Shown here in pieces: positions 10,120-29,721 of a stretch of 64,000 bases of DNA. Each line of letters begins with the position of its first letter. The stretch's first letter is position 1. The notes beneath the pieces were generated by a model. The model made no database searches and had not been told where the DNA came from. It worked only from the letters and a program-made list of their open reading frames with translations. Origin of the DNA: Candidatus Nitrosopumilus sediminis (lineage in GTDB: Archaea; Thermoproteota; Nitrososphaeria; Nitrososphaerales; Nitrosopumilaceae); assembly GCF_000299395.1 (NCBI RefSeq), contig NC_018656.1:434001-498000 (forward strand). The letters run 5' to 3'. The position numbers and the translations under genes are program-made.

Positions 10120-10243
10120 TCCCGCGGGGCGGAATTGAACCACCGACAACCCGGTTTCTGTATGCCTGATATGCTGTTTTTCGGTCAGCCATCTAAAGCC
10201 AACAACTACAGCCGGAAGCTCTACCAGGCTGAGCTACCACGGG
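10120..10243 (-). tRNA. tRNA-Tyr (GUA) with a 50-nt intron
   Basis: Exon 1 is 10243-10206 and exon 2 is 10155-10120, with the intron at 10205-10156. Acceptor CCCGTGG pairs with CCGCGGG and has the C1-G72 pair typical of archaeal tRNA-Tyr. The D stem is GCTC/GAGC, the anticodon stem TCCGG/CCGGG with loop CTGTAG-A (anticodon GTA), and the T stem GGTGG/CCGCC with TTCAATT. The intron sits at 37/38. Exon CTGT pairs with intron ACAG, flanked by 3-nt bulges AGT and AAA, the canonical outer half of a bulge-helix-bulge. An encoded CCA follows at 10119-10117. Confidence 0.95.
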
Positions 10244-27026: not shown

Positions 27027-28124
27027 TTATAATGTTGGGCTGATTGCTCCTGAAATTAGGGCATGATCTGCTATGGTTAATGCTACAAGAGAATCTACTA
27101 CTGGAGGAGCTCTTGGTACGACACATGGATCGTGCCTTCCTTTAACTTGAAGAATTGTCTCTTTTTTTGTTTTGATATCGACTGTTTTTTGTTTTTGAGC
27201 AATAGATGACGCTGGCTTGAAAGCGATTCTCATGGTAATTGGCATTCCGTTTGAGATGCCTCCTAGGATTCCTCCAGATCTGTTTGTCTCTGTAACTATT
27301 TTTCCTCGTTTTATCGTATACAGGTCGTTGTTTTCTGAACCATAAAGTTCTGAACCTGCAAATCCTGAACCAAATTCAATTCCTTTTACAGATGGAATTG
27401 AAAATATAGCTTTACTCAAATCTGATTCTAATGAGCTAAAAATTGGTTCACCTAATCCTACCGGAACTTTTGTTGTAACTGATTCTATAATCCCTCCTAG
27501 AGAATCTCCTTTCTTTCTAGCATCTAGAATACTCTCTCTCATTATTTTTGCTGTCTTATTTTCAGGACAACGAACTTCATTTTTATAAATAGAACTAATC
27601 ATCTTTTCATTAAATTCTCTTTCCATCTTTATTTTTCCAATTTGTGCTGTGAATGAATTTGTTTCAATTCCTAATGTTACTTTAAGTAATTTTCTTGCAA
27701 TAGCACCTCCCATCACATGCGTTGCAGTTAATCTTCCAGAAAATCTTCCTCCTCCTCTATGATCATTGAAATGATTATATTTTGTCATGGCTGGATAATC
27801 TGAATGGCCTGGTCTAAGTTTTGTTTTCAAATTTTCATAATCTTTTGATTTTTGGTCACTATTCCAAATCACCATTGTGATTGGTGCTCCTGTTGTATAT
27901 CCTCTAAAGACTCCTGAGATTATCTCAACAATGTCTCCTTCCTTTCTTTGAGTCGAGATTAGATTTTGACCTGGCTTTCTAAGATCTAGCATTTTTTGAA
28001 TATCTTTTTCATCAATCTCCAATCCTGCTGGACATCCATCTAAAACGGCACCAATGGATTTTCCATGGCTTTCACCAAAACTTGTTAAAACAAGACGCTG
28101 ACCAATAGAACTTCCCGGCAACAT
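27027..28124 (-). CDS. aroC: Chorismate synthase (AroC)
   Basis: A 365-residue chorismate synthase, the FMN-dependent last step of the shikimate route. Motifs: LTSFGESHGKSIGAVLDGCPAG at the N-terminus, RPGHSDYPAMTKYNHFNDHRGGGRFSGR, GGILGGISNGMPI and RHDPCVVPRAPPVVDS. It has its own TATA-like AATTATAAAC about 27 nt upstream (around 28152) and is separated from aroA by a 328-nt gap that holds a structured RNA candidate. Confidence 0.97.
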   Translation of the reverse strand: MLPGSSIGQRLVLTSFGESHGKSIGAVLDGCPAGLEIDEKDIQKMLDLRKPGQNLISTQRKEGDIVEIISGVFRGYTTGAPITMVIWNSDQKSKDYENLKTKLRPGHSDYPAMTKYNHFNDHRGGGRFSGRLTATHVMGGAIARKLLKVTLGIETNSFTAQIGKIKMEREFNEKMISSIYKNEVRCPENKTAKIMRESILDARKKGDSLGGIIESVTTKVPVGLGEPIFSSLESDLSKAIFSIPSVKGIEFGSGFAGSELYGSENNDLYTIKRGKIVTETNRSGGILGGISNGMPITMRIAFKPASSIAQKQKTVDIKTKKETILQVKGRHDPCVVPRAPPVVDSLVALTIADHALISGAISPTL

Positions 28125-28335
28125 ATTATCAAAGCTAATCGATGTTTATAATTCCTCATTCTGAAATTTATCAAAATCCTACGGGTTGGGTTCTAATTTT
28201 TTTGACTAGTATCTTATACCTGTTTAAAAATTATATAATAATTGGATAAATTATGAAATAATTATAATATATTCTTAAATATTAGAATTACATACATTAA
28301 ATATGCAAAATCGTGTAAATTATAAAGAATAGTTT

Positions 28336-28420
28336 GCGCGGCCCTGCGAAAAAGACATGTTATCTACGCAAAAGCGTTGTGGGTGAGGAGAATGCTTTTC
28401 ACCCTATACAGGGTCGCGCC
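28336..28420 (+). ncRNA. Novel structured RNA candidate between aroC and aroA
   Basis: A GC-rich island of about 85 nt in very AT-rich sequence. Outer stem: GCGCGGCCCTG (28336-28346) pairs with CAGGGTCGCGC (28409-28419), 11 pairs with one G-U. Inside are hairpin ACGC-AAAA-GCGT (28366-28377) and a 10-pair hairpin GGGTGAGGAG-AATG-CTTTTCACCC (28381-28404). Upstream are TATA-like elements (AATTATAAAG, TTAAATATG); downstream is T7. The plus orientation, opposite to aroA and aroC, is inferred from promoter and T-tract. It fits no tRNA, 5S, SRP or C/D pattern. The remainder of the 28125-28452 gap is AT-rich, with only the aroC promoter recognised. Confidence 0.6.
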
Positions 28421-28433
28421 TTTTACCTCTCTG

Positions 28434-28447
28434 TTTTTTTAAAAAAA
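28434..28447. terminator. T7A7 tract, probable bidirectional terminator
   Basis: TTTTTTT (28434-28440) followed directly by AAAAAAA (28441-28447). Read on plus it ends the structured RNA; read on minus it gives an oligo-T just after the aroA stop (28453). Archaeal polymerase terminates on oligo-U, so one palindromic tract could serve both directions. Confidence 0.5.
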
Positions 28448-28452
28448 TTATT

Positions 28453-29721
28453 TTACTGAATATGGATATTTGCACCCATGCGCTTCATCTCTTCTACAAA
28501 ATTTGGATATGATACTTTGACTGATTCTGGATCCGTTACAGTACAATTTCCTACATACATTCCTGCAATACAAAAAGCCATGAATAATCTGTGGTCTTCT
28601 TCTGAATTTAAATCGGCTCCTGTCATTTTTTCAGATGATTCTAAAATTAACCCATCATCTTTTTCTTGAATTTTAATTCCTAGTTTTACAAGCTCTCTTG
28701 ACACAATTGCTATTCTATCGGTTTCTTTGAGTCTTGCATGTTTTACATTAAAAATTTCAATAGGATTTGATGATTTTAATGCTAAAATTGCAAGTGGTGG
28801 AAGAAGGTCGGGGGAATTACTCAAATCAAATTTTCCTCCTCTTAGTTTTTCAGGTGTTTTAATTTTAATTTGTTCATCGTCTACTGTAACTTCAACTCCT
28901 AATTGTTCTAAAATATCAATGAAGATTTCGTCGCCTTGTGGTAGATTTCCAATATCTCCTTTTACTATAATATCTTCTCCACATAAGACATTTGCAGAAA
29001 GCAAGAGTGCAAGACTTGAGAAATCTATCGGGACAGTAAATTTACATTCTTTGTAGATTTGTGGCGAAATGTTGTATCTTTTGTATGGAATTAATGTTTG
29101 AACTGTAACACCAAATTTTCTCATTGTAGATATCGTTGCATCAAGATATGGTTTTGATACTAAATTTCCTTCAATCATTAAATTTATTCCATTTTCAGTT
29201 AATGGTGCGCAAATCAATAATGCTGAAATAAATTGACTAGATAGATTTCCTGGAATTTTAACTTCTCCCCCAACTATTTTCCCTTTAATTTTGATTGGAG
29301 GTTTTCCATCTGTTGAACTACATTCTGCTCCTATACTTGTTAGTGCATCTAAGAGCGGCTGCATTGGTCTTTTTTGCAAGCTTGAATCTCCTGTAAGTGT
29401 GATCTCCTCAGAAAATAAACTGGCAATTGCTGAGGCTATTCTCATGGTAGTTCCTGAGTTTTCTGTATTGATTTCAGGTACTTTTGTGCCTATTTTGATG
29501 GGATTTTTAACAATAATTGATGAATTTTTAATTTCGATATCTGCTCCAAATTTTTTACATGCTTCAATTGTTGCATTTGTGTCTGCTGAAAATAACACGT
29601 TTTCTACAGAACTATTTTTTCCAGCCAGTGATGCAAGAAAAATTGCTCTGTGTGAGTAGCTCTTGTTTGGTGGACATGCTATATCTCCCGAAATTTTTGA
29701 TTTTTCGACTTTACACTTCAT
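28453..29721 (-). CDS. aroA: 3-phosphoshikimate 1-carboxyvinyltransferase (EPSP synthase, AroA)
   Basis: A 422-residue EPSP synthase joining shikimate-3-phosphate and phosphoenolpyruvate. Visible are ACPPNKSYSHRAIFLASLA (substrate lysine and SR), NSGTTMRIASAIASL, the GDSSLQKRPMQPLLDALTSIGAEC block and LKETDRIAIVSRELVKLG near the end. Length is typical. The start overlaps the 3' end of the shikimate kinase frame by 11 nt, supporting one operon. Confidence 0.96.
   Translation of the reverse strand: MKCKVEKSKISGDIACPPNKSYSHRAIFLASLAGKNSSVENVLFSADTNATIEACKKFGADIEIKNSSIIVKNPIKIGTKVPEINTENSGTTMRIASAIASLFSEEITLTGDSSLQKRPMQPLLDALTSIGAECSSTDGKPPIKIKGKIVGGEVKIPGNLSSQFISALLICAPLTENGINLMIEGNLVSKPYLDATISTMRKFGVTVQTLIPYKRYNISPQIYKECKFTVPIDFSSLALLLSANVLCGEDIIVKGDIGNLPQGDEIFIDILEQLGVEVTVDDEQIKIKTPEKLRGGKFDLSNSPDLLPPLAILALKSSNPIEIFNVKHARLKETDRIAIVSRELVKLGIKIQEKDDGLILESSEKMTGADLNSEEDHRLFMAFCIAGMYVGNCTVTDPESVKVSYPNFVEEMKRMGANIHIQ

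Follow-up and report, generated by a model that had tools for sequence, protein, structure and literature searches.

Within the window, the 64,000-nucleotide stretch of the Candidatus Nitrosopumilus sediminis genome that was analysed here, an RNA gene lies on the + strand between aroC (27027-28124, − strand) and aroA (28453-29721, − strand), and the orientation of these two genes puts the aroC start on its promoter side and the aroA end beyond its 3′ end. The gene begins with a TATA box (CTTAAATAT, 28274-28282), in which the word TTAAATA starts at 28275, 28 nt before an ATG; a TATA-like promoter had been proposed in the preliminary description of the locus and is indeed present, although it is located further upstream than the element named there. 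The ATG opens a nine-codon reading frame (MQNRVNYKE*, 28303-28332, stop codon at 28330-28332) with a start that is predicted to coincide with the transcription start site, and a hairpin within it, P0, pairs 28313-28321 with 28331-28339. A multibranched domain (28336-28419) lies 3′ of this mini-ORF and is followed by a run of seven T. It consists of the outer stem P1 (28336-28346 paired with 28409-28419), a conserved single strand J1 (CGAAAAAGACAUGUUAUCU, 28347-28365) that is near-invariant in the corresponding RNAs of Nitrosopumilus and its allies, the small hairpin P2 (ACGC AAAA GCGU, 28366-28377) and the 10-bp hairpin P3 with an AAUG loop (28381-28404). The T7A7 tract, reported before and located at 28434-28447, supplies the T run that also follows the RNA in aligned homologues, and as the end of aroA on the − strand is at 28453, the tract is likely a terminator common to the RNA and to the convergent aroA. 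The gene is predicted to yield a transcript of its own, about 130 nt long, of which the preliminary description had captured the 3′ part but missed the 5′ part with the leaderless ORF and its internal hairpin.

The domain folds with a minimum free energy of −40.3 kcal/mol (z = −4.0), which is equalled by 0/200 shuffled sequences, and the 11-bp outer stem, the AAUG-loop hairpin and the small hairpin all form as initially described. Among 78 pooled homologues of the window RNA, hereafter type I, 98.2% of the pair cells are paired and 15/25 pairs show two-sided changes, so the stem-preserving substitutions among relatives that had been suggested as a check of the fold are abundant. The changes are found in all three helices, with two-sided substitutions in 6/11 pairs of P1 (99.1% of cells paired), 4/4 pairs of P2 and 5/10 pairs of P3 (98.5% of cells paired). 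The two-sided changed cells number 153, compared to 41 in shuffles, and the covariation score is 0.316, compared to 0.165 in shuffled and at most 0.072 in slid controls; the underlying alignment was fitted to the structure and has only one gapped cell in the outer stem. The antisense strand folds too; however, several pairs swap G-U for A-U or G-C among the homologues and would be mismatched if read on the − strand, which identifies the + strand as that of the RNA and settles its orientation against aroA and aroC as first proposed.

The arrangement of TATA box, short spacer and ATG recurs in almost all aligned homologues whose upstream sequence is long enough to show it. Relative to the ATG, TTAAATA starts at −28 in 50 type I copies, at −29 in 24 and at −31 in three copies whose ATG sits at codon 2, while the exact word is missing in two. 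Upstream of gene starts in 464 kb of the Nitrosopumilus sediminis genome the same word peaks at −28/−29 (11/21), a position relative to the start codon that is the mark of leaderless mRNAs. Since the spacing in the RNA gene equals that of leaderless genes, the 5′ end of the transcript is predicted to lie at, or a few nucleotides from, the start codon of the mini-ORF, that is, at or beside the A of the ATG at 28303.

The mini-ORF is open in 77/77 distinct type I copies, with no internal stops. It starts with ATG in 72 and with GTG in two, and in the remaining three, which do not have the first ATG, an in-frame ATG follows one codon later; a further copy (L102) has ATG at both codons and is apparently an intermediate in this shift. 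All three stop codons are used (TAA 40, TGA 34, TAG 3), and length differences amount to whole codons, giving ORFs of eight or nine. When ORFs were simulated on the RNA tree, under a simple substitution model with site rates taken from the same columns and with related sequences, none of 120 runs with site rates kept the frame open in every leaf (mean open 43-46%), and neither did any of 120 runs with uniform rates (mean 24-26%, maximum 84%). In the 464 kb, 23 ATGs occupy the leaderless-start position, and just three of them open frames shorter than 20 codons; two of these are members of the RNA family, and the third, of eight codons, was discarded as it lies within a gene on the other strand. 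The encoded peptides are 57 distinct sequences among the 77 copies, exemplified by the unrelated MQNRVNYKE, MSVEPRPMA, MLRDIKSIK and MAEKSRQMT, and the RNA domain is far better conserved. Such a pattern suggests that selection probably acts on translation itself and not on a peptide product. One degenerate type I copy at an aro locus (L079:3001-3084, − strand) has a frame-broken ORF and weakened stems, and appears as a case of decay in progress.

Type I RNAs were matched by blastn in 74/200 genomes of the same archaeal family and by a covariance model, R1, in 102/400 genomes of the order, all of them from that one family and from five genera; the named records found in a pattern scan belong mainly to Nitrosopumilus, Nitrosarchaeum, Nitrosomaritimum and Nitrosotalea. 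A contig filed under "candidate division KSB1 bacterium" (L140) carries a Nitrosopumilus-type RNA with promoter and ORF and is likely a mis-binned archaeal contig, and two copies in one genome (L098 and L100), each at or near a contig end, are probably one locus split in the assembly. In the first 30 loci, aroA adjoins the RNA in 30/30 and aroC in most, whereas the Nitrosotalea RNA is not near aro and, in both loci that were read, follows a sir2-like gene. Synteny, another check proposed at the outset, is accordingly kept in only part of the range. A model of the pooled type I sequences, R2, found no type I copy, not even a diverged one, in 20 genomes labelled as the same genus, and those tested do carry the type II paralogues described below. 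In eight of the 20 the aro locus was inspected, and aroA and aroC are adjacent there with no RNA between them, separated by 129-326 bp in seven genomes and by 176 bp in the eighth, more distant one. The intact aroA-aroC pairs together with the Nitrosotalea copies elsewhere indicate that the RNA is dispensable and not a control element of aro, and its non-constant linkage to the two genes rules out a cis-regulator of them. These observations, along with paralogues found beside unrelated genes, also speak against the initial suggestion that the RNA is processed from or acts on the aro messages. The other initial suggestion, an independent small RNA, is upheld by its own promoter, conserved fold, T run and the Nitrosotalea orthologues at another locus.

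In other genera R2 gave weak matches that have the same TATA box, a leaderless ATG, nine codons and a stop, followed by a related closing stem, and these define type II. A covariance model built from seven type II copies, R3, matches 156/300 genomes of the class, which without exception belong to the same archaeal family and amount to 156/171 of its genomes as listed, with one to four type II matches per genome, and in a phylum-wide sample all 60 matching genomes fall inside the family and none outside it. The source genome itself contributes two type II copies (701694-701792 and 1645750-1645848). R3 in turn also detects type I, both the window RNA and its orthologues, finding the known type I locus in 7/16 genomes at E ≤ 0.03 and in many others at E ≤ 0.01, and this reciprocal recovery links the two types as one family. 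One match (G000:179295, E = 0.28) has no TATA-ATG-ORF arrangement in place and was taken as chance, and another (G443/L203) was spurious. The type II structure is likewise upheld by covariation, with two-sided changes in 20/27 pairs among 59 aligned copies (57 type II and two type I) and a score of 0.378 compared to 0.201 when shuffled.

Fifty type II copies were read in detail, and in each of them a TATA box at −28 to −30 precedes the leaderless ORF, which ends in a stop codon 3-5 nt before P1. The ORF can be read as nine codons in 48 and as eight in two, and for three of the 48 a later start gives an alternative reading of eight; the peptides are again unrelated between subgroups. Thus, all 127 copies examined (77 type I and 50 type II) have an open leaderless ORF of eight or nine codons, using all three stops, and in copies of both types the stop lies 3-5 nt before the domain. 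It is therefore well supported by these sequence relationships that the window RNA is a type I paralogue of a multi-copy small-RNA family confined to one archaeal family, that of Nitrosopumilus, Nitrosarchaeum, Nitrosotalea and their allies, and comparison across the copies demonstrates, besides the family itself, its strand, promoter position, ORF integrity, helices P0-P3 and absence of peptide conservation. In a type II copy of the Nitrosotalea group (L212:1501-1599) P3 reads GGAGGUGAUC, an exact Shine-Dalgarno sequence, where most copies have GAGGNAAUC; P3 as a Shine-Dalgarno mimic was rejected, the match being exact only in some type II copies of this group.

The window RNA had been called unrecognised, and so it is as far as Rfam 15, where neither it nor the type II copies searched gave a match at gathering or relaxed thresholds, including to RNase P, SRP, tRNA and snoRNA families. 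The RNase P RNA is located elsewhere in the genome (536121-536399), ARAGORN finds no tRNA at the element and no tmRNA in the window, and H/ACA or C/D box motifs were not seen by eye. A tRNA gene at 10120-10243 of the window (− strand) is matched by Rfam over 124 bases and missed by ARAGORN, and is probably an intron-containing archaeal tRNA. The type I and type II patterns occur in no IMG/VR contig, and a viral origin was dropped. The open-access literature holds nothing on this RNA family, and some copies may have been seen earlier as unnamed transcripts in marine small-RNA papers outside open access.

The in-ORF hairpin is conserved in both types, with a mean folding z of −2.6 in 63 type I and −2.7 in 44 type II copies and z below −1 in more than 90%. 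In the window RNA, the long form of P0 has a 3′ arm that takes in the end of the stop codon and shares 4 nt with the beginning of P1; P0 is the first helix to form in transcript prefixes, and the P0 and P1 states are 2.8 kcal/mol apart. Set against the alternative structures that adjoin the short ORF of attenuators, P0 and P1 overlap by 4 nt in type I but not in type II, where P0 lies inside the ORF and coexists with P1 without competition, and a P0/P1 exchange is therefore not general. Covering nucleotides 1-44, as would a terminating ribosome with an assumed footprint of about 14 nt past the stop codon, prevents P1 from forming and changes the fold from −42.1 to −23.4 kcal/mol, and translation of the mini-ORF is on this basis proposed as a gate.

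The reading that we tentatively favour, although somewhat short of an even chance, is that of a standalone small RNA whose fold would be gated by ribosomes on its own mini-ORF. A ribosome would load on the 5′ AUG and melt P0, and upon reaching the stop codon would cover the 5′ strand of P1, so that the domain would fold only while the mini-ORF is unoccupied. The peptide would be irrelevant and ribosome traffic would matter; the folded RNA would then act in trans, or be stabilised, as a readout of translation. The fixed ORF length, the fixed distance from stop to P1, the hairpin in the ORF and the unconstrained peptide sequence jointly suggest that ribosome traffic is what is selected; each step from transcription through translation and ribosome gating to trans action is inferred.

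A rather unlikely but serious alternative is an ordinary trans-acting structured RNA, with a domain that binds a protein or pairs with mRNAs and a mini-ORF that recruits ribosomes or protects the 5′ end without any gating. The standalone gene, the covarying fold and the conserved single-stranded J1 and P3 loop are all consistent with such a function, and many haloarchaeal small RNAs show ribosome occupancy without coding evidence (PMC12482152), but it leaves unexplained why in all copies the ORF has a fixed length of eight or nine codons and ends 3-5 nt from P1. Considerably less probable is an action in cis on the tail-to-tail neighbour, as an antisense RNA or shared terminator. In 43/49 type II copies for which a neighbour was detected downstream, as well as in the type I copies located at aro or found in Nitrosotalea, the RNA faces a convergent gene, often at a spacing of 0-5 nt, although the 49 represent few independent sites and a few copies are codirectional. 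However, the neighbours across the family are unrelated (aroA, a PurP-like gene, a small secreted protein and a membrane protein) with no common downstream gene or function, aroA-aroC persist without the RNA, and a terminator would require conservation of neither promoter nor ORF. One further type II copy (L196:1001-1096, − strand) precedes a superoxide dismutase gene of the same strand by 32 nt, and that gene may have its own TATA-like box. It is quite improbable that the AUG reflects only where RNA polymerase prefers to initiate, with the ORF as an untranslated by-product of P0. P0 does constrain some of the ORF sequence and, in type I, reaches into the stop codon, yet GTG and TTG substitute for ATG, the ATG shifts by one codon in frame, the stops interchange and the length changes in whole codons; in a very small control, no ATG stands at the predicted start site of the two tRNA genes whose TATA-like box could be used. 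Least probable of all is a micropeptide gene with the structure as a stabilising 3′ UTR, since even with start, stop and frame always kept intact, the 8-9-residue peptides vary freely within type I and between subgroups next to a far more conserved RNA domain.

The proposed ribosome-gated RNA has several partial counterparts among known systems. In trp-type leader-peptide attenuators a ribosome on a short ORF controls the folding of the adjacent RNA, and the ribosome on the mini-ORF would act on the neighbouring fold in a similar manner; in contrast to attenuators, there is no controlled codirectional downstream gene, given the mostly convergent neighbours, and no conserved regulatory codon or amino acid. 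The tmRNA is likewise a structured RNA that contains a very short reading frame, but combines a tRNA-like domain with a resume ORF, whereas the window RNA is without a tRNA-like domain and its ORF begins at the RNA's own 5′ AUG. Yfr6, the Downstream-peptide RNA, also combines a short ORF with RNA structure in a small RNA, but there the ORF has the structure as its 5′ UTR (PMC2864571), while in the window RNA the order is the opposite, with the ORF at the 5′ end and the fold beyond its stop codon, and the lineage is different. Finally, dual-function small RNAs, including the ribosome-associated ones of haloarchaea (PMC12482152), are standalone small RNAs with an actual or possible short ORF as well, although in the present family the ORF is leaderless, fixed at eight or nine codons, encodes an unconserved peptide and abuts a conserved fold in 127/127 copies. 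The family is filed as a new RNA family, kin to small RNAs that bear short ORFs. That it would further represent a new class of regulatory RNA, a multi-copy archaeal small RNA gated by ribosomes on its own mini-ORF and serving as a translation sensor without a cis-regulated gene, is a more doubtful proposition, for which we see perhaps a modest chance.

Nitrosopumilus and related archaea oxidise ammonia and are abundant, and to our knowledge few regulatory RNAs are known in them. The RNA family comes with a covariance model ready for use and a proposed mechanism open to direct tests. Occurring in about nine of ten genomes sampled from this archaeal family, with a leaderless mini-ORF of fixed length and free sequence, it would show selection for the act of translation, not its product, and the ribosome-gating reading, if true, would be categorically new.
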